A stretch of 64,000 nt of DNA from Christensenellaceae bacterium. Its GTDB lineage: Bacteria; Bacillota; Clostridia; Christensenellales; Christensenellaceae. The notes beneath the pieces were generated by a model that worked only from the letters and a program-made list of their open reading frames with translations, searched no databases and had not been told where the DNA came from. Both the position numbers and the translations under genes were made by a program. Positions 478 through 24,052 of the stretch are shown here, piece by piece (position 1 is the stretch's first letter; each line of letters begins with the position of its first letter). The stretch is from the NCBI GenBank assembly GCA_017523755.1, contig JAFWWA010000046.1, positions 1 to 64,000 on the forward strand. The letters run 5' to 3'.

Positions 478-541
478 TTAAGTAAAGGATTTCCTCTGAA
501 GAATGACGATATATCAATAAGATTTTGAAGACGGTGTGATT

Positions 542-3214
542 ATGGAAAACTATACCTATAAGGCCTTTATATCATACAGGCATACTGAACCCGATGAGAT
601 CGCAGCAAAGAGACTGCATACTCTGATCGAGACATACGGTATCCCTGGGGAGCTTAAGAAGTCTCTCGGGATGAAAAAGATGGGAAGAGTGTTCAGGGAT
701 CAGGAGGAGCTTCCTCTCTCGACGGATCTCGGCGCTGATATATATAAAGCGCTCGACGCATCGGAATGGCTGATAGTGATGTGTTCGCCTGCTTATCTTC
801 AGTCGAAGTGGTGCAGGGCTGAGCTCGATTATTATATTTCCATCGGAAGACGTGACCGCATCCTTGCTGTTCTGGTAGACGGGGAGCCCGGGGAAGCATT
901 TCCTCCTCAGCTGAGACATAAGACCATAAACGGCATGGAGACCGAAGTAGAGCCGTTAGCCGCCGATATAAGGGATACATCGGTCAGCGGGATGATAAAA
1001 AAACTGGGTACTGAAAAGCTTCGTATACTTGCTCCTATGCTCGGGGTGTCTTTCGACTCATTAAGGCAGAGAGACAGAAGAAGAAAGCTGAGGCTTGCTG
1101 CAGGTACTGCGGCAGCTTCTGTAGTACTGCTGGCAGGCTTCCTTACCTATGCTCTTATAAAAAACAGCCAGATAGCCGAGCAAAGAGACATCGCTGAAGA
1201 GCAGAGGGACTATGCCGAGGAACAGAGACAGATAGCTGAAGAACAGAGAAACATCGCGTCAGAGCAGAGAGATATAGCTGAAGGACAAAGGCAGATAGCG
1301 GAGGAACAGAGGGCGATCGCCTCCGAACAAAGGGATATCGCGCTCGATAATCAGCTGCAGCTCCTTATCGAACAGGCCAACATATCCTCTGACGGAGGAG
1401 ATAAGATCATAGCGGCAGGACTGCTTTCCCGGGCTGCTGAGCTCAGGGAACAGGTAGGCAAGGGCCATGACGAAGAACTCAAGTCAGCGCTGGAATACGC
1501 CCTGTATAACTCCCAGTTTGACACGGTGCTCACGATAGACAATGACAACAGACAGTTTGACTCGATAGTATTCTCTCACTCAGACAGGTACCTGCTTGCG
1601 ATAACCAACCTTAATTCCGCATGTCTCATAGATGCTGAGACCGGTGAGATACTCAATACCGTTTCCAGAAGCGATATAGGACAGCTCGACAGTGTGGGAT
1701 TCACGCTTGATGACAGATATTTCTATATGGTGGATTCATGGTTCGGATACGTTTCCCTTTATGATGTGTCTGACGGAACTCTTTTCAGGGAATTTGACGG
1801 TTCAGCTGAGCATACATGGAATATAGGCGGGGACGTCATACCGATGACGGACAACAGGCTGATGATCGTAAAGGACAGGATAGTCATCCTGTGGAACTAT
1901 AAAGAAAACACAACCGAAGAGATACTCCCGGTGACTACTGACGGAGCGTTTGACGGATATCTGCAGCCCGGGTATCCTCAGCCATTCACACTGGACCTGT
2001 CTCCTGATGAAAGTTCGGTCGTTATAGGTTCGCACGGCTACGGGACAGGCATGAAGATCAAGTCGCTTGATGGAAAGGAACTAGTCTCTCTTGAATATGA
2101 TCCTGAACGCGGGTATCCCCAGATAATGTTCAGCGGTGACGGAAGATATGTGGCAGGGTGCTCGGGCAACAGATATTATGTGTGGGAAGCGGCGACAGGA
2201 AAGCTTCAGCTTGAGGGTACCGTGTCTGAAGAGTATACGGGAGATGTGTTCGTACAGATAAATCATGACGGTGATGTACTGCTCATAATGTCATCTGATT
2301 ATCTCGGGGCAGTCGAAACAGGCGGGGGAAAGATCCTTTGGGAGAAAAGAGCTGATTCCAACGTGGTCACAGAAGCGTATATTTCCCCGAATGGAAGATA
2401 TGTTTGTACTTCGGGAGGGATAAGCGGAGTCTTTGACATTTTGACCGGTGAGACACTGTGCGACCGGGCAGGCACTGCATTTTCCAATGATTCTTCCAAG
2501 GTCCTGTGCGGTACCTATGGGACAGAGCCACAGCTTCTGGTGACACCGGAGGCAGCGACATCCTGGATCGAGAAAAAGTTTGACGGCAAGCTTTATGAAG
2601 TCAATCGGTTCACTGATCCGGGCACTCCGGTCAATATCAGGTTAAGACACAGTGCAGGGGAGATATATTCGCAGCCTCCTGGGAACGCAAACAGACAGCA
2701 GCTCATCTATTCCAGCCCTGATGCAAAATATGCTGCCCAGACTCATTATGACGGTTTCATAGAAGTGTTTGACATTTCGGATCCCGGTAATGTGAAAGAG
2801 ACGATGTGTATGGCTGAGCATTGCTGGCAGTCTGTCACAGACCTTATTTTCCACGGAGATTTCATGGCTTCCTGCGGAGGATTCGATCCCAGATGTGTTA
2901 TTACCGATCTTAAGAACGGTAAGATACTGCACGTGCTGACTGTTGAAGGGTATGCTTGGGGATGTGAATTCTCACCTGATGGTTCGAAGATAATCATACT
3001 TTCCGGTTATTCAAGGGATACTGCCTATGTATACGATGTTGAGACAGGGAAGCTTTTGTACAGATTCACGGCACCCGAGGGGCACAAACTGGACAATATC
3101 GGTTTTACTGAGGAAGGTGACCTCGCTGTGGCGTCGGCAGATGACGGGCGCGCGGTAGTGGGCAGGATCTATGCGTCGGTCGATGACCTTATACTTGAGG
3201 CGAAAAACAGATAA
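542..3214 (+). CDS. TIR domain / transmembrane / heptad repeat / beta-propeller protein
   Basis: A protein of about 890 residues with four visible parts. Residues about 5-125 form a TIR domain: it opens with KAFISYRH and carries the WCRAEL block, where the glutamate (about residue 94) sits at the place of the catalytic Glu of NAD-cleaving TIR domains. One transmembrane helix lies at about 186-206. Residues about 212-268 are eight tandem seven-residue repeats of the type EEQRxIA, predicted to be coiled coil. The remaining 600 residues contain WD40/PD40-like blades (for example FSPDGSKI, LSPDESSV). The likely topology is a cytosolic TIR, one membrane pass and an outer propeller. ATG 542 is preferred over GTG 536; neither has a strong ribosome binding site. 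The ligand and function are unknown; NADase or signalling activity is inferred only from the TIR motif. Confidence 0.85.
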   Translation: MENYTYKAFISYRHTEPDEIAAKRLHTLIETYGIPGELKKSLGMKKMGRVFRDQEELPLSTDLGADIYKALDASEWLIVMCSPAYLQSKWCRAELDYYISIGRRDRILAVLVDGEPGEAFPPQLRHKTINGMETEVEPLAADIRDTSVSGMIKKLGTEKLRILAPMLGVSFDSLRQRDRRRKLRLAAGTAAASVVLLAGFLTYALIKNSQIAEQRDIAEEQRDYAEEQRQIAEEQRNIASEQRDIAEGQRQIAEEQRAIASEQRDIALDNQLQLLIEQANISSDGGDKIIAAGLLSRAAELREQVGKGHDEELKSALEYALYNSQFDTVLTIDNDNRQFDSIVFSHSDRYLLAITNLNSACLIDAETGEILNTVSRSDIGQLDSVGFTLDDRYFYMVDSWFGYVSLYDVSDGTLFREFDGSAEHTWNIGGDVIPMTDNRLMIVKDRIVILWNYKENTTEEILPVTTDGAFDGYLQPGYPQPFTLDLSPDESSVVIGSHGYGTGMKIKSLDGKELVSLEYDPERGYPQIMFSGDGRYVAGCSGNRYYVWEAATGKLQLEGTVSEEYTGDVFVQINHDGDVLLIMSSDYLGAVETGGGKILWEKRADSNVVTEAYISPNGRYVCTSGGISGVFDILTGETLCDRAGTAFSNDSSKVLCGTYGTEPQLLVTPEAATSWIEKKFDGKLYEVNRFTDPGTPVNIRLRHSAGEIYSQPPGNANRQQLIYSSPDAKYAAQTHYDGFIEVFDISDPGNVKETMCMAEHCWQSVTDLIFHGDFMASCGGFDPRCVITDLKNGKILHVLTVEGYAWGCEFSPDGSKIIILSGYSRDTAYVYDVETGKLLYRFTAPEGHKLDNIGFTEEGDLAVASADDGRAVVGRIYASVDDLILEAKNR
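1175..1342 (+). repeat. Eight 21-bp tandem repeats coding heptads
   Basis: Eight in-frame copies of a 21-base unit encode AEQRDIA-like heptads inside the TIR protein. Codons vary between copies (CAA/CAG, AGA/AGG), so the repeat is conserved at protein level and is not a recent DNA duplication. Confidence 0.85.
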
Positions 3215-5219: not shown

Positions 5220-6098
5220 TTAAATAAGAGAATGCTTCTTAAGAATGCTTCTTAGCTGGGAGGCTTTTTCACTGTCCATCTCACACAGCGGGAGCCTTAC
5301 ATCGCTTCCGCAAAGACCCATCATGCCCATTGCGGTCTTGACGGGTATGGGGCTGACATCGGTGAAAAGACCTTTAAAGAGATCGTAATACTCAAGGTGT
5401 ATCTTTTTGGCTTCTGCCATATCCTCATCAAGGCATGCCTGTGTCAGTTCGTGCATCTGAAGAGGGATTATATTTGCGGCTACCGAGATCACCCCGATAC
5501 CGCCTACAGACATGATGGGGTAGGTAAGGCTGTCGTCCCCGGAATAGACGTCGATCTCTCCTCCAGTCTTTAAGATCAGCTCCGTGATCTGGGATATATT
5601 GCCTGATGCCTCTTTTATGCCTGAAATGTTCCTTATGCCGCACAGACGCTTTACCGTATCCGGAAGTATATTGACTCCGGTCCTGCCGGGAACATTGTAT
5701 ATTATCACCGGGGTATCGACATTTTCCGATATGGTCCTGTAGTGCCTGTACAGACCTTCCTGTGAAGCCTTGTTATAATAAGGTGTCACTATAAGCAGGG
5801 AATCGGCACCGCATTCCTCGGCATAATGCGCATTTTCTATCACCTGAGCGGTATTGTTGCTGCCTACGCCTATCATTACGGGCACTCTTTTATCTATATA
5901 ATCGATGGAGAACCTGATCAGCTCTCTTTTTTCAGTTTCCGACATGGTGGCGGGTTCGCCTGTAGTGCCGCAGATCAGTATCGAATCGGTCTTGTTGTCG
6001 ATCTGAAAATCGATGATCTTCTTAAGAGAATCGTAGTCTATGCCTTTATCGTTAAAGGGTGTGACCAGAGCAACTCCGGATCCTTTGAAAACGCTCAT
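5220..6098 (-). CDS. dapA: 4-hydroxy-tetrahydrodipicolinate synthase
   Basis: A 292-residue class I aldolase that condenses pyruvate with aspartate semialdehyde, the first committed step to diaminopimelate and lysine. GTTGEPATMSETE near the N terminus, the catalytic Tyr in YNVPGRTG and the Schiff-base Lys in SGIKEASGN are all present. It is first in the operon dapA-dapB-aldo/keto reductase. The leader of roughly 80 bases has a possible TATTAT -10 element but no lysine-riboswitch-like length or structure that I can see. Confidence 0.96.
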   Translation of the reverse strand: MSVFKGSGVALVTPFNDKGIDYDSLKKIIDFQIDNKTDSILICGTTGEPATMSETEKRELIRFSIDYIDKRVPVMIGVGSNNTAQVIENAHYAEECGADSLLIVTPYYNKASQEGLYRHYRTISENVDTPVIIYNVPGRTGVNILPDTVKRLCGIRNISGIKEASGNISQITELILKTGGEIDVYSGDDSLTYPIMSVGGIGVISVAANIIPLQMHELTQACLDEDMAEAKKIHLEYYDLFKGLFTDVSPIPVKTAMGMMGLCGSDVRLPLCEMDSEKASQLRSILKKHSLI

Positions 6099-6277
6099 AC
6101 CTGATCCCTGTCCTTTCCTTTATCCCTCCTGGAGCCTTCGTGCCGTAAGCCTGTGAACAGCTGTGACCGTACGCAGTCGGGGATGATATAATACCGGTGA
6201 AACAAACTGAAAACATCTTTTCAACTTGCCTTGATTATATCATCGGGGCATATCAGTGTCAATTGAAGGGAAGGGGC

Positions 6278-6832
6278 ATGAAAGGGGCAGGATATATGGA
6301 TACTGCGGGCTTTTTTACCGATAATCTGCACATAAAGCGATATGATATGAATGATCTTGACGGATTCTACAGGATCGGATCCGATAAGCATACCGCCATG
6401 CTTCTTGGGATAAGGGAGTTCTCGGGGAGAAGTGAAGCGCGCGAGCTCGCGGAGGACCTTCTTATCAGGGGAGAGCTGTTCAGCCTGTTCATGAAGGATA
6501 CCGGGGAATACATCGGTTTTATAGGGATATCGGATGACGGGAGGAGAGAGGATCCCTCCGTTAAGATGGTCTCATTTGCACTGATCCCCGGCATGAGGGG
6601 AAAGGGTCTCGGAACTGAAGCGTTAAGAAAGGTCACGGAAAGGCTTTTTAGAGAACGGCAAACGGTCACAGCTTACTGCTTTCCCGAAAACGGGGCTGCT
6701 GCCGCTTTTTTAAGGAAATGCGGATTTCGTGAGAAAGGGATTATGAGATCGGAAGCAGTGGACGGGCACGGAAAGGTGCATGACCTCATATGTTTCCTGG
6801 CGTCATACAAAAACAGAGCGGATATCATTTGA
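6278..6832 (+). CDS. GNAT acetyltransferase, RimJ/RimL type
   Basis: About 184 residues. The fold elements of a Gcn5-related N-acetyltransferase are visible: FIGISDDG, the acetyl-CoA loop region GMRGKGLGTEAL, and the late block AAAFLRKCGFREKGIMR, as in ribosomal-protein or small-molecule acetyltransferases. ATG 6278 is chosen because GAAGGGAAGGGG lies immediately upstream; ATG 6296 is an alternative. The gene stands alone between the divergent dapA and a convergent membrane-protein gene. Its substrate is not predictable. The last codons overlap the stem of the terminator. Confidence 0.85.
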   Translation: MKGAGYMDTAGFFTDNLHIKRYDMNDLDGFYRIGSDKHTAMLLGIREFSGRSEARELAEDLLIRGELFSLFMKDTGEYIGFIGISDDGRREDPSVKMVSFALIPGMRGKGLGTEALRKVTERLFRERQTVTAYCFPENGAAAAFLRKCGFREKGIMRSEAVDGHGKVHDLICFLASYKNRADII

Positions 6833-6852
6833 CGGGTATCTGCTCTGTTTTT
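6809..6852. terminator. Bidirectional terminator shared by acetyltransferase and YcxB-like gene
   Basis: ACAGAGC at 6813-6819 pairs with GCTCTGT at 6842-6848, extended inward by GGATAT/GTATC pairs. As run at 6809-6813 and Ts at 6848-6852 allow termination in both directions. The left arm is inside the acetyltransferase coding end. Confidence 0.8.
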
Positions 6853-6871
6853 AAGTGTTCAGTCTTCCTTT

Positions 6872-7405
6872 TCAGATCTGTTTTTCAAGCGACCCCGGGA
6901 TCCTGCCCGGGATCGTTTTTTTCATCAACTCTATGAAATCCTTCAGTCCGTCCCCGGAAAAGGCATCTTTTTTAAGTATCAGGCAGTCTCTCCTATCGGT
7001 ATACAGAAGATAGAGATTTCTGGTCTGCCCCAGCCTCGTCATGTCTTTAAGGGGATATATCATCCTTGAGCCGGTACGGCTGTTGCTTGCAGAGACGATA
7101 TCTCCTTTGAACTCGTACGTTATTATCTCTTCTTCTTCGCTGTCATGGCTGTTCTTTTTCAGTGCGATGACATACTGCACTGCGCGCAGTATAAGTATGC
7201 CTATGACATACGCGAGACAGAGAAGGAAATTCTTGACATCCTTTTCGCTGTCGAAGATGAGATGATATACGTCTATCAGAAGATTCAGCACCAGAAACGA
7301 TTCGATGATGATGAAGAAAGGGGAGAGGAACATCCTCTTCCTCAGGAATTCCCTCGTTATGTTTCTGTCCAGCCTGTAGCGGTTTATGATCTTTTTTTCT
7401 TCCAT
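6872..7405 (-). CDS. YcxB-like small membrane protein
   Basis: 177 residues. Two hydrophobic helices at about 27-50 and 62-82 (FFIIIESFLVLNLLID and LCLAYVIGILIL) are followed by a charged linker (SEEEE) and a soluble C-terminal domain with the block SRMIYPLKDMTRLGQTRNLYLLYTD, which resembles the YcxB-like C-terminal domain (conserved, unknown function). It starts 10 bases after the DUF362 gene and is probably co-transcribed with it. No functional claim is possible. Confidence 0.65.
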   Translation of the reverse strand: MEEKKIINRYRLDRNITREFLRKRMFLSPFFIIIESFLVLNLLIDVYHLIFDSEKDVKNFLLCLAYVIGILILRAVQYVIALKKNSHDSEEEEIITYEFKGDIVSASNSRTGSRMIYPLKDMTRLGQTRNLYLLYTDRRDCLILKKDAFSGDGLKDFIELMKKTIPGRIPGSLEKQI

Positions 7406-7415
7406 ATCTTCAGGT

Positions 7416-8531
7416 CTAGATCCTTCCGTTTATGATCCTTGCGATAAGAGGCCTTTTTGCGATAAGAGCTGATCTGGGGCAGAATTCCTGGCAGCAGAAG
7501 CACCTTATGCAGGCCTTCCTGTCTATTTCAGGGTAAGGAGCAAGCTTTATAGCCTTTTTAGGGCAGATCCTTTCACATTCCCCGCATCTGATGCACAGAT
7601 CCTTTTTTAAAACAGGCTTTCTCTCGAAGACAGCTGAAGCGATGCCGATATCGAAATGAGTGTTGACTCTGTCAATAAGCTCAAAGCTGCCTGCGGAATA
7701 TGGTTCGGTACTTCCGTAAAGGTTTATGCTGTCAGGGTATTGAGGCATGAGGCCTCTGTCATAAGCCGCTTTAAGGTAAGGTATCGCCATAGGGTCCAGC
7801 CCCATGATCCTTGCTCCCTCAACATCGGCGTAATAGGGAGAAGAGGATGCGATAAGCGCGCCGACGTGACGTGGCTTTCCTCCTGAAGGTCCGTTGCCCT
7901 CCATCGCCATGCATGCGTCTATGAGAGACAGGACAGGCTTTTTAAATATGGTTATGTCTACCAGCATGTCGGCAAAATCCTCGGTCCTCGGATATTTGTA
8001 GTGATATTCGGGCTTTTCGACGCCGGGTATGATCCCGAACATGTTTTTCGTAGCTCCGGTCATAAGGAGCATGCCGTGGGTCTTCAGCTTGGCAAAGTCT
8101 ATTATATAGTCGGCATCATCGAGATATCCTGTATAATTGAGTTCTTTTACGACCTTCCCGTCAAATCCGGAATGAGATACGCGCATATCCCGGTTTAGCT
8201 CGGCACCGCCCTTTTCCGCCAGATCTATCCCTGTTCCCTTGTAAATGGCGGCTACGTAAGGATAGGTATAGAGACCTCCAGGACTGTCGCCTATAACTAC
8301 ACTGCATCCCTTTTCCGTAAGTATCTTTGAAAGGCAGTAAAGCATTATGGGATGGGTAGTGGCTGCCGCCTCCGGCTTTTTCAAAAGAAGAAGATTCGCC
8401 TTGATGGCTATCTTTTTTCCCGGCACGGCAAAACTGAATCCGACGGTGTTCTCAACAGCTTCGTAAATGGCTTTTGTTACCGTTTCCTCATCATAGCTGA
8501 CGCACGGGACCACGGCACAGTCATATCTCAT
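7416..8531 (-). CDS. DUF362 protein with C-terminal ferredoxin domain
   Basis: 371 residues. The main body matches DUF362 (LKTHGMLLMTGATKNMFGIIPG and the NGPSGGKPRHVG block). The C terminus is a two-cluster bacterial ferredoxin: CIRCGECERIC at about 313-323 and CIRCFCCQEFC at about 341-351. DUF362 proteins are conserved in anaerobes but their reaction is not established; the clusters imply electron transfer. The ATG has GGGAAGGA upstream. A strong hairpin separates it from the fused synthase gene upstream, so it is probably a separate or only partly linked unit. Confidence 0.88.
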   Translation of the reverse strand: MRYDCAVVPCVSYDEETVTKAIYEAVENTVGFSFAVPGKKIAIKANLLLLKKPEAAATTHPIMLYCLSKILTEKGCSVVIGDSPGGLYTYPYVAAIYKGTGIDLAEKGGAELNRDMRVSHSGFDGKVVKELNYTGYLDDADYIIDFAKLKTHGMLLMTGATKNMFGIIPGVEKPEYHYKYPRTEDFADMLVDITIFKKPVLSLIDACMAMEGNGPSGGKPRHVGALIASSSPYYADVEGARIMGLDPMAIPYLKAAYDRGLMPQYPDSINLYGSTEPYSAGSFELIDRVNTHFDIGIASAVFERKPVLKKDLCIRCGECERICPKKAIKLAPYPEIDRKACIRCFCCQEFCPRSALIAKRPLIARIINGRI

Positions 8532-8551: not shown

Positions 8552-8603
8552 AAGGCGACAGTCATCATTATAAGGAAACCTTTCCAAGCAATGATGACTG
8601 TCG
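8552..8603 (-). terminator. Hairpin terminator after the fused AL-ACP-AONS gene
   Basis: A perfect 14-base stem, CGACAGTCATCATT / AATGATGACTGTCG (8556-8569 / 8590-8603), encloses a small AAGG/CCTT hairpin. On the minus strand it is followed by CCTTTTAC, a weak T tract, so some readthrough into DUF362 is possible. Confidence 0.55.
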
Positions 8604-8615
8604 TGTAAGCTTTTT

Positions 8616-11600
8616 CTATTTAATGAATCCGTATTCGCGCATGAGCCTTGAACAGAGCGAGACTGCCGTCTCAAGCTGTTCTATAGAATGGGCCGCCGAC
8701 AGTGAGAACCTTAGACGGCTCTGTCCTCTCGGGACTGCGGGATACATTGCAGGCGGGACGAATACGCCGTTCTTCAGCATGAAATGCGAGAGCATCGCAG
8801 CATCCTCGTCGGAGCCGACGAGCACAGGGACTATGGCGCTTTCCTTCGCGAGACCGGTATTAAGGCCTTCCTCGTTGGCACGTCTTATGAAATACTCGAT
8901 GTTCCTGTGAAGAGCGGATACTGTGGTATTGTCCCTCTGGATTATCTCTATCGCCTTCATGCATGCTGCTGCAAGCGGCGGACTTATGCCTGCCGTGAAC
9001 ACGAATCCGTTCATCGAGTATCTTAAGTATTCGACTATCGATCTGTCTGCGGCTATATAGCCTCCGCAGGTACCTAAAGCCTTGCTCAGAGTACCCATCT
9101 TTATATCAACGTCGTGAGGCTCAAGATGGAAGTAATCGTCCACACCACCTCCGTGATCGCCTATGACACCGCTTGAATGTGCTTCGTCGACCATAAGGAA
9201 GCATCCGTATCTCTTTTTGAGCTTTACGAATTCAGGAATGGGGGCGATGTCGCCGTCCATACTGTAGACCCCCTCAACTACGATGAGGACCTTGTTGTAT
9301 TTCCCTTCTATATTCTTAAGGGTAGCTTCAAGAGCGTTGAGGTCGTTATGCGTGAACGCCTTGCTGTCCGCCTTCGACAGGGCGACGCCTTCCGTTATGG
9401 AGTTGTGGGACAGAGCGTCATAGAGTATGAAATCGCCCTTCTTTGCGAAGCAGCTTATGAATGTAAGATTGGTGGACCAGCCTCCGGTGCAGACTATGGA
9501 GTCTTCGGTATGCTTCCAGTCGGCAATCGTCTTTTCGAGCTTCTGGTAAAGAGTCTTTTCTCCCGCCAGTGTCCTGCTGCCGCTTGCTGAAGTGCCGTAG
9601 ATCTTCACAGCTTCGATGGCTGCCTCCATGGTCTCAGGATTGCCGGACATGCCAAGGTAGTTATACGATCCGAGGTTGATGACCTTTGATCCGTTTATTA
9701 TGCTCGTATCCCTTATAAGGCTGTCATGAGGAACGAAGTACGGATTCATCGACTGGTCTTTGACGACATTGGCTTTTCTTTCCTCAAGCGCTTTATACTC
9801 CTCGCTGTCCCTGAAATCGGTTATCCTTGAAGTCCCTATGTGGGTCTCAGAGGTCCCGCCCGAAAGATCTATGCCGTATTTCTTGCCGTATATGATCTTT
9901 GCGATCTCGTATGCGTTTATTGCTGAGGAGAGTTCCGAATCGGATATCACGAGCCCGTATTTCTCTTCGAGCTGTGCCATGATGCCTATGATCGAAAGAC
10001 TGTCCCCTCCGAGGTCGAAAATGAAGTGTGCGCTGTCGGATACCGAGCTTTTCTCTATAGAAAGAGTGTCCGCAAAGATCTGAAGGATATCATCCAGTAT
10101 GCCCTTGAATCTGGGATCGGCTTCAAATCCCTCGCTCCTCGCGGGAATATCCGCTTCCTGTGTGTCATCGCTTACTGTAAGCTCCTTAAATGAGCCTTCA
10201 TTAAGCATCTGTCTTATTATCTGCCGGCGGACCTTCATGCTTCCTGACAACGGCAAAGGATCAGCTGCAAAAATGACCCGTCTTATCTGCCTGTACGTCG
10301 GGAGCTCCTGATTTACGCGGCTGATGCTTTCCTCTAAGCCACTTATCGCGTCTGGAGTCTTTTCCTGAGGTTCGACTACAAGGACGACATCCTCATATTC
10401 CCCGTTCTTTACTCCTGTTACGCACAGCCTTGCGATGCCTTCCACATCTTCGAATGATTCCTCAAGCTCATCCGGGTATATGTTCTCTCCGGAGCTGTTG
10501 ATGATAACGTCCTTTATCCTGCCTTCGATATAGAGCTTGCCGTCGTCGAGCCGTGCTATATCGCCAGTCGCGAACCAGCTTTCGGGATCCCTTATGACCT
10601 TTTTCCCGTCAACAAGTCTTGATGAATGCAGAGAGCTTCCTTTTATGCTGAGCTCACCGTTTTCAAGAACGGTATATGTGACCGATGAGAAAGGCCTTCC
10701 TACGCTGCCTTTCTCTCTTTCGGTGATGTCAGGATCGAGCTCGACCGACGTTATGCCGCTCTCGGTCATGCCGAAGCCGTTATAGAGGGGGTATCCTATA
10801 CCGTTTATGATCTTAAGCGTATCCTGCGGGATATGGCCTCCGCCTGAGATAAGGAATCTTATCCTGCTTCCAAGAAGACTGTTCCTGATCTCCCTGATCA
10901 TGGGATGATCCTGCCCCCTGCCGCTCATGATGAGTGAAAGTATGGGCTCGGCTTTCTCTTTGTACTGGGCCCTTATCTTTCTTACAAGAGAGCTGGCGAT
11001 GGAATTGAAGAACACGGGGACCGCGCAGATATGCGTGACTCCGTGCTTTATTGATGTTTCAAATATGGTATTGGGATCGCGGTCCCTTAAATACACTATG
11101 GTCTTCCCGAGACATGAATACCATATGTTGAGGACTATGAACCCGAATATGTGATAGAAGGGGAGGAATGCCAGCTGCTTGAGCTCGCCTTTATCCTCGT
11201 CGTATGCGATATCATCGTTCTGTGGGATTATCTCGCCGGTGTTTGTGAGCTGGCTCGATATAGCCCTGCCGTCGTAAATGAAGATCCTGCTGTCCCCGGT
11301 CGTGCCCGAAGTGCACAGGGCAGCCTCATCGGACCATACCTCTTTCCCTTCGGGACCGTCGAGAAGGACGGCTTTGACAGGGATCATGGGACGGTCAGCA
11401 TCCTGTATCAGCTCGTTTGAGATATAGCATTTTGCTCCGGATTCCTTTAAGAGCTTGGACAGAGTCTGAGGCGCAGTCTGCGGATTGAGCAGAAGCGGTA
11501 TGCCGCCGCTCATCATGATGCTCCAGAACAGTACTGTCCAGTTGATATCGGTATCAGCTGCGAGTCCTATCACATCGCCTTTGTTTATTAGGATGCTCCT

Positions 11601-11789
11601 CTGCAGATTTCCGGCCCCTTTTCTTGCAAGGACGGCGTTTTCCTTATATGTCCTTATAACTGTTTCGCCGCCGGGCACGGGAGTGAACTCTCCTGCAACT
11701 CTGTCGCCGTAATCTTCAAGTATACCGAAAAGTGTCCTGTATGAAGGATCGGAAGCGACTCTTTTTAGGATATCCTGCCAAGTGATCAT
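8616..11789 (-). CDS. Tri-domain acyl ligase - acyl carrier protein - alpha-oxoamine synthase
   Basis: A 1057-residue fusion. Residues 1-~540 are an adenylate-forming acyl ligase (TSGTTG at ~160, YNGFGMTESG at ~337, ATGDIARLDDG at ~407, C-terminal Lys in LSGSMKVRRQ, ~K519). Residues ~555-640 are an acyl carrier protein whose FDLGGDSLS motif carries the phosphopantetheine Ser (~S597). Residues ~690-1057 are a PLP-dependent alpha-oxoamine synthase of the KBL/BioF/SPT family (SYNYLGMSG, SGSRTLAGE, VDEAHSSGVIG, Schiff-base Lys in GTLSKALGT, ~K903). The expected reaction is activation of a carboxylic acid, loading on the built-in carrier and decarboxylative condensation with an amino acid to an alpha-aminoketone. 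ATG 11789 has AAAAGGGAG seven bases upstream. It lies downstream of an Fe-alcohol dehydrogenase but has its own promoter. Confidence 0.92.
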   Translation of the reverse strand: MITWQDILKRVASDPSYRTLFGILEDYGDRVAGEFTPVPGGETVIRTYKENAVLARKGAGNLQRSILINKGDVIGLAADTDINWTVLFWSIMMSGGIPLLLNPQTAPQTLSKLLKESGAKCYISNELIQDADRPMIPVKAVLLDGPEGKEVWSDEAALCTSGTTGDSRIFIYDGRAISSQLTNTGEIIPQNDDIAYDEDKGELKQLAFLPFYHIFGFIVLNIWYSCLGKTIVYLRDRDPNTIFETSIKHGVTHICAVPVFFNSIASSLVRKIRAQYKEKAEPILSLIMSGRGQDHPMIREIRNSLLGSRIRFLISGGGHIPQDTLKIINGIGYPLYNGFGMTESGITSVELDPDITEREKGSVGRPFSSVTYTVLENGELSIKGSSLHSSRLVDGKKVIRDPESWFATGDIARLDDGKLYIEGRIKDVIINSSGENIYPDELEESFEDVEGIARLCVTGVKNGEYEDVVLVVEPQEKTPDAISGLEESISRVNQELPTYRQIRRVIFAADPLPLSGSMKVRRQIIRQMLNEGSFKELTVSDDTQEADIPARSEGFEADPRFKGILDDILQIFADTLSIEKSSVSDSAHFIFDLGGDSLSIIGIMAQLEEKYGLVISDSELSSAINAYEIAKIIYGKKYGIDLSGGTSETHIGTSRITDFRDSEEYKALEERKANVVKDQSMNPYFVPHDSLIRDTSIINGSKVINLGSYNYLGMSGNPETMEAAIEAVKIYGTSASGSRTLAGEKTLYQKLEKTIADWKHTEDSIVCTGGWSTNLTFISCFAKKGDFILYDALSHNSITEGVALSKADSKAFTHNDLNALEATLKNIEGKYNKVLIVVEGVYSMDGDIAPIPEFVKLKKRYGCFLMVDEAHSSGVIGDHGGGVDDYFHLEPHDVDIKMGTLSKALGTCGGYIAADRSIVEYLRYSMNGFVFTAGISPPLAAACMKAIEIIQRDNTTVSALHRNIEYFIRRANEEGLNTGLAKESAIVPVLVGSDEDAAMLSHFMLKNGVFVPPAMYPAVPRGQSRLRFSLSAAHSIEQLETAVSLCSRLMREYGFIK

Positions 11790-11873
11790 GAAATATCTCC
11801 CTTTTAAACCTGTTTTATTCAAGAGCAGCGCGTATGCTCTGATGCAAAGATCCCGATGCTATACTTATTGGAG

Positions 11874-11902
11874 ATTGTATCATTTTTGTAAACATTTGAC
11901 AA
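11874..11902 (-). promoter_or_regulatory. Promoter of the fused synthase gene
   Basis: On the minus strand, TTGTCA (11897-11902) and TACAAT (11874-11879) are 17 bases apart. The leader of about 78 bases contains a short AGAGC/GCTCT hairpin before the ribosome binding site. Confidence 0.65.
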
Positions 11903-11939
11903 CCTCAAAAGACGTGTGAATGCGCCCGGGGCAAGACAC

Positions 11940-11966
11940 AAAAAAGGCTCCCGGGGGAGCCTTTTT
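11940..11966 (-). terminator. Terminator after the Fe-alcohol dehydrogenase
   Basis: Stem GGCTCC / GGAGCC (11946-11951 / 11956-11961) followed on the minus strand by six Ts (11940-11945). It also has Ts on the plus side. It separates the dehydrogenase from the fused synthase gene. Confidence 0.8.
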
Positions 11967-11982
11967 GCAGTTAACGGTCCTC

Positions 11983-13197
11983 TCAGCCTTTGTAGGGGGT
12001 CGTGAGTTCTTCCCTGCAGGCGTAAAGGATATTCTTTATATCTTCGTAGGACATGACGGTGAGCTTTCCGATGTTTCCGTGTTCCCCGTCGCATATCTTC
12101 CAGATCTTGTCGGCTACTATATCGAGCTCCGAATCCGAGAAGTCGATGGTCTGGGACAGATCGTAAAGCGTCTGCGGAGCGTCCATCTTCTTGAGCCACT
12201 CTATGAAAGCGTCGACGCCGAGGACCGCGGCCTTCTCATCGTCATCACAGTCTATGCCCATGATGTTCCTTGCGAATCTTGCAAATATCCAGGGCTGGCG
12301 AAGCATTGCGACCCTCATCCATCTGGGAGTCACGACGCCCATTCCGCCGCCGTGATGGGTATCGAAGTGCCCGCTTATCCTCTCTTCGATGTTGTGGCAC
12401 GCATGATCGGAAGGACCTCTTCCTATCTTGGTAAGACCGGTGCCCCATGTCATCGTGGATATCCACATTATCTCGCCCCTTGCATTGAGGTCGCCCATAT
12501 CAGCGTGAAGTCTCTCGAGCGCGCTCATGGTTGCCTTTATGAGTGCTTCTGAGAAGCAGAGCTGGAATTCGGCGTCCCTGCATCCGTTGAAGTAGTATTC
12601 GAACGAATGGCTGAGTATATCCATGGCGCCCCAGATTGTGAGCCTTCTCGGAAGAGTGCTGGTCACTACAGGATCCATGAAGCAGTACTTGGGATATTCA
12701 ACGAGACACCATGATTTGTCCTTGGTATCGGCGTCGACTATTACTGCCGTGTTGTTGAGCTCGGTACCGGTAGCCGCGATAGTGGGTATCATGACCGTAT
12801 CAAGCGAGCCGATCACGCCGGGCCTTGAACCCCAGACATATTCATACGGATCAAGACCGGTCTTTGCGGACATGGCGATGATCTTTGAGCAGTCCATGGC
12901 TGAACCGCCGCCGAGAGCAACTATGCATTCGACACCGTTGTCCCTTGCGACCTTGACGCCTTCATATACGCTGTACATCTTGGGGTTGGAATCGATATCG
13001 CTCATGCCGAACACTTCCATGCCGGCCTTTTCAAGCTGGGTCTTTACCCTGTCATAGAGTCCGCTCTCGCGGAAGGGTCCTTTTGCAGAGACGAGCAGGC
13101 AGCTCTTATAGATCCCGTTGAGTTTTTCTCCGATCTGATCTATGACGCCGTTACCGAAGAATGTGGTAGTCGGGTTGTAGAATTCAAAATCTCTCAT
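11983..13197 (-). CDS. Iron-containing alcohol dehydrogenase
   Basis: 404 residues, group III (YqhD/butanol-dehydrogenase-like). It has the N-terminal NPTTTFFGNG, the nucleotide-binding ALGGGSAMDCSK, and the metal-binding region AMDILSHSFE followed by SDHACHNIEERISG and HHGGGMG with the His ligands. It would interconvert an aldehyde or ketone and an alcohol with NAD(P)H. The ribosome binding site GAAGGAG lies 6 bases before ATG. It sits upstream of the fused synthase gene on the same strand; joint action on the same molecule is an inference, and a plain fermentation role is the main alternative. Confidence 0.92.
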   Translation of the reverse strand: MRDFEFYNPTTTFFGNGVIDQIGEKLNGIYKSCLLVSAKGPFRESGLYDRVKTQLEKAGMEVFGMSDIDSNPKMYSVYEGVKVARDNGVECIVALGGGSAMDCSKIIAMSAKTGLDPYEYVWGSRPGVIGSLDTVMIPTIAATGTELNNTAVIVDADTKDKSWCLVEYPKYCFMDPVVTSTLPRRLTIWGAMDILSHSFEYYFNGCRDAEFQLCFSEALIKATMSALERLHADMGDLNARGEIMWISTMTWGTGLTKIGRGPSDHACHNIEERISGHFDTHHGGGMGVVTPRWMRVAMLRQPWIFARFARNIMGIDCDDDEKAAVLGVDAFIEWLKKMDAPQTLYDLSQTIDFSDSELDIVADKIWKICDGEHGNIGKLTVMSYEDIKNILYACREELTTPYKG

Positions 13198-22417: not shown

Positions 22418-24052
22418 ATGCCGATTACAGAATTCCTTTCAAGAAACGCAGCGTTATATCCGGATGACATAAGCCTTGTCGAGATAAACCCTGAAGCAAG
22501 AGAGCGCGAAGGCCGTTCATGGACTGAATATGAACTTGTTGAGATGGATCCGACACGGAGATACCGCAGGCAGATAACGTGGAAGGAGTTTGACGAAGAA
22601 GCCAACAGATTCGCAAATGCGCTTATTGCCGACGGAATAAAGAAGGGCGATAAGGTCGGGATACTCCTCATGAACTGCATAGAGTGGCTCCCTGTATACT
22701 TCGGAGTGCTGAGGTCAGGCGCGCTCGCAGTACCTCTCAACTTCAGATATACCGCCGACGAGATAAGATACTGTCTTGATCTTGCTGAATGTGATGCGCT
22801 GATCTACGGCAACGAGTTTCTGGACAGGGTGGATGCCGTCATAAATGAGATCCCGAGGACAAGGCTCATCTATTATATCGGAAGTGACCGCCCCGGTTAC
22901 GCAAAGGACTATGTCGCTTCCATTTCGAAAATGAGCTCGGATGATCCCGGGATAGAGCTGACAGACGATGACGATGCCGCGATCTATTTTTCTTCGGGCA
23001 CGACAGGTTTCCCCAAAGCGATACTCCACGCTCACAGGGCTCTCGTCCATGCATGCCTCTGCGAGCAGAAGCATCACGGACAGACCAGGGACGACGTTTT
23101 CCTCTGCATACCTCCTCTCTATCACACAGGCGCCAAGATGCACTGGTTCGGAAGCCTTCTTTCGGGCGGAAGAGCCGTACTGTTAAAAGGCATAAAGCCT
23201 AACTGGATAATAGAAGCGGTATCGAACGAGCATGCGACTATAGTATGGCTCCTTGTACCGTGGGCTCAGGATATCCTTGATGCCATCGACAGGAAGGAGA
23301 TAGATCTCAGCAAATATGAGCTTTCCCAGTGGAGGCTCATGCATATAGGAGCCCAGCCTGTACCGCCGAGCCTTATAAAACGCTGGAAAAAGGTGTTCCC
23401 TGACCATGATTATGATACGAACTATGGGCTTTCCGAATCAACGGGACCCGGATGCGTACACCTGGGCGTAGAGAATATAGACAAAGTCGGAGCGATCGGC
23501 ATACCGGGATATGGCTGGGAGACCAGGATCGTCGATGAAAAAAGGAATGATGTCGAGCAGGGCACGGTAGGAGAGCTTGCCGTAAAAGGCAACGGCGTTA
23601 TGAAATGCTATTACAGGGATCCTGCCGCCACGGCAGAGGTCTTACAGGACGGATGGCTCTTCACGGGGGACATGGCGATGCAGGACAGTGACGGCTTCAT
23701 ATATCTCGTCGACAGGAAGAAGGACGTCATCATAACCGGCGGTGAGAACCTGTATCCTGTACAGATAGAGGACTTCATACATACCGACGAGGCCGTAAAG
23801 GATGTTGCCGTTATAGGCATCCCGGACGCCCGTCTTGGAGAGATAGCTGCAGCTATAATAGAGATAAAGGAAGGATACGAGGTCACGGAGGAAGATATAA
23901 ACGAGTTCTGCAAGGCTCTCCCGAGATACAAGAGGCCCAGAAAGATAATCTTCGATAAGGTGCTCAGGAATCCTACCGGAAAGATAGAAAAGCCGAAACT
24001 GAGGGAAAAGTATATCGGCGACAGCCTGGTCAAAGTCCAGATCACTTCATGA
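22418..24052 (+). CDS. Acyl-CoA ligase (AMP-forming)
   Basis: 544 residues of the adenylate-forming superfamily. It has the P-loop SSGTTG (about 192-197), NYGLSEST, LFTGDMAMQDSDGFIYLVDRKKD, and the C-terminal catalytic Lys in NPTGKIEKPKL. It resembles medium/long-chain fatty-acid or aromatic acid CoA ligases; the substrate cannot be chosen. It is monocistronic, with its own terminator and a possible promoter (TTGTAG / TATACA, 17 apart, near 22357). It is distinct in sequence from the ligase domain of the fused protein at 8.6 kb, and any link between the two is speculative. Confidence 0.9.
   Translation: MPITEFLSRNAALYPDDISLVEINPEAREREGRSWTEYELVEMDPTRRYRRQITWKEFDEEANRFANALIADGIKKGDKVGILLMNCIEWLPVYFGVLRSGALAVPLNFRYTADEIRYCLDLAECDALIYGNEFLDRVDAVINEIPRTRLIYYIGSDRPGYAKDYVASISKMSSDDPGIELTDDDDAAIYFSSGTTGFPKAILHAHRALVHACLCEQKHHGQTRDDVFLCIPPLYHTGAKMHWFGSLLSGGRAVLLKGIKPNWIIEAVSNEHATIVWLLVPWAQDILDAIDRKEIDLSKYELSQWRLMHIGAQPVPPSLIKRWKKVFPDHDYDTNYGLSESTGPGCVHLGVENIDKVGAIGIPGYGWETRIVDEKRNDVEQGTVGELAVKGNGVMKCYYRDPAATAEVLQDGWLFTGDMAMQDSDGFIYLVDRKKDVIITGGENLYPVQIEDFIHTDEAVKDVAVIGIPDARLGEIAAAIIEIKEGYEVTEEDINEFCKALPRYKRPRKIIFDKVLRNPTGKIEKPKLREKYIGDSLVKVQITS

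Follow-up and report, generated by a model that had tools for sequence, protein, structure and literature searches.

A candidate self-loading ligase–carrier–α-oxoamine synthase in gut Clostridia and its proposed sphingoid-like product

The window analysed here, a stretch of 64,000 nucleotides from a Christensenellaceae bacterium (GenBank assembly GCA_017523755.1, contig JAFWWA010000046.1, positions 1 to 64,000), carries on its reverse strand a gene (8616-11789) for a protein of 1057 amino acids in which an adenylate-forming ligase, a carrier protein and an α-oxoamine synthase (AONS) are fused in one chain. This fusion is very probably a self-loading, carrier-fed oxoamine synthase, and its product is, on balance, expected to be a serine-derived sphingoid base reduced by a short-chain dehydrogenase/reductase (SDR). 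It is most likely the single-chain counterpart of the Rhodobacterial set of AasR, AcpR and serine palmitoyltransferase (SPT), making a base similar to 3-keto-sphinganine. In the model proposed, the ligase would activate a free fatty acid, presumably a long-chain one, with ATP and transfer the acyl group to the carrier, onto the phosphopantetheine arm borne by Ser597, following which the AONS, dependent on pyridoxal 5′-phosphate (PLP), would join the acyl thioester to an amino acid, most likely L-serine, with loss of CO2, setting free an aminoketone that resembles 3-keto-sphinganine. Its keto group would next be reduced by a KdsR-like SDR, which neighbours the fusion gene in many relatives and has its gene elsewhere in the window's genome, to give an amino alcohol of the sphinganine type, which might subsequently be N-acylated or receive a head group. 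A fusion of ligase, acyl carrier protein (ACP) and AONS was not found described in the open-access literature searched.

The ligase domain (residues 1-535; 10185-11789, on the reverse strand as is the whole protein) was delimited by its Pfam AMP-binding match (29-378, 1.4e-37) together with invariant columns, and it contains the ATP loop CTSGTTG (159-165), D410, R424, the GEN motif (434-436) and the catalytic Lys519 within SGSMKVRR (10233-10235); its nearest solved relative by sequence is FadD13 (85 bits). The carrier domain (560-640; 9870-10112; PP-binding 567-626, 2.9e-10) bears the phosphopantetheine Ser597 in a GGDSL motif (9999-10001), and in the AONS domain (655-1057; 8619-9827; Aminotran_1_2 702-1043, 1.8e-53) the PLP-binding Lys903 is found in GTLSKALG (9081-9083), all three Pfam matches being above their cut-offs. 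The start was placed at an ATG following GGGAG, a mechanically assigned TTG start lying 11 codons upstream (8616-11822). Across 25 aligned fusion proteins, the positions C159-T164, D410, R424, G434-N436, K519, S597, D868, H871 and R1027 do not vary; H795 and K903 are each kept in 24 of the 25. An earlier note, made from the letters of the window, had described the three activities as fused in 1057 residues with the ATP loop, the C-terminal Lys, the carrier Ser and the PLP Lys all visible, which the open reading frame, the Pfam matches, the alignment and dozens of relatives confirm; the loss of a catalytic residue, which it had named as a ground for giving up its reading, is not seen in the aligned window protein. 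Its suggestion that the built-in ligase should load a free acid directly is likewise supported.

The same architecture occurs in dozens of other genomes, at approximately 40-63% identity, and the gene is therefore neither an assembly artefact nor a chance open reading frame. A scan of contigs gave 40 loci, 34 of them with the ligase and six encoding carrier-AONS or AONS alone (L023, L024, L027, L036, L037 and L040); of these six, L023, L024 and L027 sit among the fusion rows of the AONS tree, a placement suggestive of ligase loss. In a sample of genomes of the order the fusion was matched in 30 of 396, mostly at full length, while the class sample gave no match beyond the window's own genome and the phylum sample only two additional ones, carrier-AONS proteins without a ligase that are again the L036 and L037 contigs. 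The named carriers are mostly metagenome-assembled genomes, many of them from the gut of goat, sheep, buffalo, yak or deer. Between the window and the same-genus locus L055 the AONS domain is 86% identical and the ligase 52%, with synonymous sites saturated and non-synonymous change low, which would be expected if the amino-acid step were fixed and the choice of acid or the contacts with partners were drifting.

The best solved relative of the AONS domain is the SPT of S. multivorum (237 bits), whose N52, H138, D210, H213, T241, K244 and R367, in the printed alignment and with an offset of +1 between the chain index and the published numbering, correspond to Y709, H795, D868, H871, T900, K903 and R1027 of the fusion, R367 being the Arg of the C-terminal RF motif. 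Six catalytic residues of SPT are consequently retained, among them those matching His138, which anchors the carboxylate, and the catalytic Lys244. A structure model built with 25 sequences (mean pLDDT 75.6, pTM 0.50) likewise predicts the AONS fold, with SPT, KBL and ThAOS as the top structural matches (TM approximately 0.87 on the target).

A tree of 53 AONS sequences, inferred by maximum likelihood, unites the fusion and carrier-AONS rows without exception (100/99) and joins them in one clade (100/100) with AONSs fed by polyketide synthases (PKS) or fatty acid synthases (FAS), the classical SPT, KBL, BioF and ALAS enzymes being placed on the other side; long branches (F_L056, the BioFs and S. 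wittichii SPT) leave details within groups unsure and do not affect the major split. The domain hence stands with PKS-fused and PKS-adjacent enzymes and has a carrier with Ser597 directly upstream. Its nearest annotated relatives, from a plasmid collection, are the C-terminus of a Planktothrix type I PKS (46%) and a Streptomyces KS-AT-ACP-AONS protein (43%), followed by Pseudomonas (41%) and Paraburkholderia (40%) proteins encoded beside type I PKSs, and by an AONS of S. meliloti pSymB (40% identity), which we take to be RkpG from its context and which is encoded in a capsule region, flanked by a PKS/FAS of 2502 aa on one side and an SDR on the other. A role in threonine catabolism was rejected, given that the one further AONS of the genome is a separate KBL beside threonine dehydrogenase (L042) and that the tree sets the fusion apart.

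The recurrent neighbour of the fusion gene is an SDR, which in 18 of 71 loci (16 of the 61 loci having both flanks) adjoins it in the same orientation at no more than 400 bp, in two gene orders. Genes in these loci were predicted with a codon-usage model trained, locus by locus, on the fusion gene itself, and were clustered by BLAST; in ten loci one flank is shorter than 1.5 kb, and two contigs are included twice (L032 = L093 and L008 = L097), neither with an adjacent SDR. The SDR lies downstream in L001 (5016-5801), L002, L005, L023, L024, L027 and L031, and in L001, L005, L024 and L027 it shares 4 bp with the fusion gene; the upstream order is seen in L003, L004, L012 and eight further loci. 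The SDR of L109, 1.7 kb away, was rejected as a linked gene, being a KduD-like enzyme in a pectin locus. For four SDRs, including the unlinked relative P0006 of the window's genome (G000:C1:9366-10139), the best of 18950 NCBIfam models was NF049977, the 3-ketodihydrosphingosine reductase. It is the linkage in relatives that argues for the SDR as the acting reductase, and which SDR would serve in the window's genome is a guess.

The earlier note had instead assigned the reduction to the iron-containing alcohol dehydrogenase (Fe-ADH) encoded directly upstream (11983-13197, reverse strand; Pfam Fe-ADH 5.6e-37), which adjoins the fusion gene in the same orientation in the window and in the same-genus L055. 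That this enzyme reduces the aminoketone is very improbable, since it is adjacent in none of the other 69 loci, an SDR takes that position elsewhere, and a terminator-like hairpin and a separate promoter-like site stand between the two genes; the block of L055 is moreover syntenic with the window as a whole (a MutS2-like gene, a peptidase gene, the ADH, the fusion, DUF362 and YcxB). The linkage thus fails outside the genus, one of the outcomes that the earlier note had itself set against its reading, and Fe-ADH was dropped as a partner and is judged to be outside the pathway. The observation made in the earlier note therefore holds and its interpretation does so in part: the enzyme, its kinship with carrier-fed AONSs and, as the leading guess, a sphingoid-like product are upheld, the Fe-ADH is mostly refuted, and of the structure prediction that it had called for the fold is recovered and the pocket is too weakly modelled to be read.

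It has to be noted that several observations weigh against an SPT-like enzyme with a sphingoid product. In the amino-acid pocket, Tyr709 replaces Asn52 of the S. multivorum SPT, which is among the residues making water-mediated contacts to the serine hydroxyl (PMC10196870); S. wittichii SPT also has Tyr at this position (alignment of TYNYMGM with SYNYLGM). The structure model is weak around 664-691, 734-743 and 927-934, and the pocket is not legible there. The fusion AONS reaches no NCBIfam equivalog, the SPT models giving 256-333 bits against cut-offs of 500-670 (NF047600 333/640, NF047599 324/500, NF047603 256/670), for which reason it is not filed as a member of the SPT family, only as working like SPT; its top-scoring model is bioF, at 352 bits against a cut-off of 426. 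The four SDRs similarly score 175-232 bits with NF049977, below its cut-off of 400. The SDR profile is matched in 236 of the 396 genomes of the order, most of them without the fusion, and the presence of P0006 says little, as the subfamily is common in the order and the window's genome is 69% complete, which also makes absences in it soft. All 30 fusion genomes have the SDR, versus 206 of the 366 others (Fisher p 1.6e-7, with the significance inflated by common descent), and co-occurrence was dropped as proof because of those 206. SgaB, the enzyme by analogy with which serine is proposed as the donor, is represented in the tree by the plasmid-borne Pseudomonas PKS-AONS, its own sequence, like those of PigH, RedN and the Caulobacter SPT, being outside it. 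Finally, no head-group enzyme adjoins the fusion gene.

The bioF score, together with the known fusion of BioW with BioF (PMC9544090), raises the alternative that the chain is a synthase of 8-amino-7-oxononanoate (KAPA) for biotin, its ligase activating pimelate. This is extremely improbable: the tree separates the fusion from BioF (100/100), no biotin genes are adjacent, and Arg739 occupies a position where BioF has Gly. BioB, for its part, is present in six fusion-free genomes of the sample and was not found above cut-off in the fusion-matching ones, that is, neither in the window's genome nor in G038 (which matches by its ligase-carrier part only), G064 and G073. On this distribution and the tree, biotin synthesis was ruled out as strongly disfavoured.

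The missing head-group genes bear on another alternative as well, in which the same chemistry yields a non-sphingoid product, from alanine or glycine as the donor (the 1-deoxy type) or from a short acyl chain, serving as an exported signal or antimicrobial. AONSs of the fusion's clade are mostly enzymes of secondary metabolites or capsule lipids, and a MATE-type transporter lies next to or near the fusion in eight loci; MATE genes are, however, abundant in Clostridia, and one of the eight cases (L109) sits in a pectin-degradation locus. The best SDR family match, to 3-ketodihydrosphingosine reductase, also speaks against such a product, as does the PKS-partnered SgaB of P. fluorescens, which has a near-exclusive preference for L-serine over alanine and glycine and makes 3-ketodihydrosphinganines, the C16-acyl product being reported at m/z 300.29 (PMC12134224). 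We regard this alternative as unlikely. Distinctly less probable is a carrier-lipid synthase for a surface polysaccharide, whose amino alcohol would anchor or prime a capsule or glycolipid as proposed for rhizobial rkp: relatives in S. meliloti, Shinella, Acidisoma and Pseudomonas do belong to capsule clusters that also hold a PKS, an SDR or both, but no polysaccharide cluster adjoins the fusion in the window, and hints among the 71 loci are few (L088 and L108 each have one sugar epimerase next door). A serine-derived sphingoid base stays the preferred reading.

If this is correct, the consequences reach beyond the locus. Bacterial sphingolipids have been concluded to occur in Bacteroidetes and Proteobacteria (PMC9386255), and a ligase-carrier-AONS protein in gut Clostridia, a lineage outside the groups known for them, would add the Bacillota by a compact route from free fatty acid. 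Tentatively, the trifunctional synthase may give these mostly ruminant-gut Clostridia a (deoxy)sphingolipid of their own made from free fatty acids, with MATE export and sensing by the host or by neighbours as possible further steps. A single gene and a single lipid extract would suffice to test whether rumen Clostridia make sphingoid bases, and the fused chain would be a natural self-loading biocatalyst for aminoketones.

Some members of the family depart from this pattern. In two loci of the window's family, L056 (9953-13132; genome G013) and L057 (8431-11610; G012), the AONS is apparently dead (Lys903 to Gly, Ser902 to Cys, His795 to Ser, Tyr709 to Ala) with the ligase and carrier residues intact; between the two, the dead domain has a ratio of non-synonymous to synonymous change (dN/dS) of approximately 0.07, with few changes, and it is possibly a scaffold or a repurposed domain. 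Genome G038 encodes two ligase-carrier proteins of the fusion family without an AONS (L111 171-2204 and L112 8629-10635). The carrier-AONS genes of the environmental Bacillota contigs L036 and L037 have a CDP-alcohol phosphatidyltransferase directly upstream (7260-7829 and 7291-7836, respectively), which would fit a phospho-head-group step. MATE-type transporters follow the fusion gene by approximately 30-40 bp in L015 (11274-12632), L033 (11274-12656) and L039 (11274-12638), and are also found near it in L001, L005, L024 and L027.

The flanks of the fusion gene make it look like its own transcription unit. The hairpin 3′ of the Fe-ADH gene (11941-11966, reverse strand) has 11 pairs followed by a T run, and the interval between the two genes reads AAAAAGGCTCCCCCGGGAGCCTTTTT, then TTGTCA-17-TACAAT, the promoter-like consensus match ahead of the fusion (11874-11902, reverse strand). 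Downstream of the stop codon, a perfect 13-bp inverted repeat followed by CCTTTT (8556-8603, reverse strand), a probable terminator by direct reading, separates the fusion from a gene for a protein with DUF362 and two [4Fe-4S] clusters (7416-8531, reverse strand). A consensus scan found no more sites in the region than in shuffles, so the argument rests on the position of these sites, which are readings of shape and position and not proof. The window and L055 each have a DUF362 gene close to the fusion, co-directional and downstream in both, as does the distant L012, where it is divergent (5922-6920, reverse strand); found in these three loci only, the ferredoxin is not claimed as a partner. 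Elsewhere in the window, 22418-24052 (forward strand) encodes a second adenylate-forming ligase of 544 aa, weakly similar to that of the fusion, and 536-3214 (forward strand) an 892-aa protein in which reading by eye suggests a TIR-like N-terminus (KAFISYRHTEPDE), a coiled repeat and a C-terminal part of WD40 type; it perhaps functions in signalling or defence.

Among known systems, PigH and RedN of the prodiginine pathways likewise carry a carrier and an AONS on one chain, and they are without the ligase domain. The Sinorhizobium capsule set, whose members we take from context to be RkpA, RkpG and RkpH, resembles the present system in having an AONS that is approximately 40% identical, preceded by a PKS/FAS and followed by an SDR, and differs in being PKS-fed, tied to capsule export and without a ligase. 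BioWF (PMC9544090) also fuses an acid-activating enzyme, in that case a pimeloyl-CoA synthetase, to an AONS, without a carrier domain and in a biotin context. In the SgaA-SgaB(-SgaC) system of Pseudomonas, an AONS with SPT activity acts on a carrier-bound chain, and the cluster contains a KDSR homologue (PMC12134224), an SDR; the chain is built by an iterative PKS in that system, whereas here a ready-made acid would enter via the fused ligase. A Pseudomonas PKS-AONS encoded on a plasmid shares the AONS clade of the fusion. In Rhodobacteria, finally, AasR accepts no carrier but its own AcpR for acylation, and acyl-AcpR together with serine is then converted by SPT to 3-oxo-sphinganine (PMC9386255), the same order from free fatty acid through acyl-ACP to PLP-dependent condensation as is proposed for the fusion, in which tethering would make the loading selective. 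These are three separate proteins of Proteobacteria (e.g. Caulobacter), and the Sphingomonas SPT lies on a different branch of the tree from the fusion AONS, which in Clostridia is found with its ligase and carrier in one chain.

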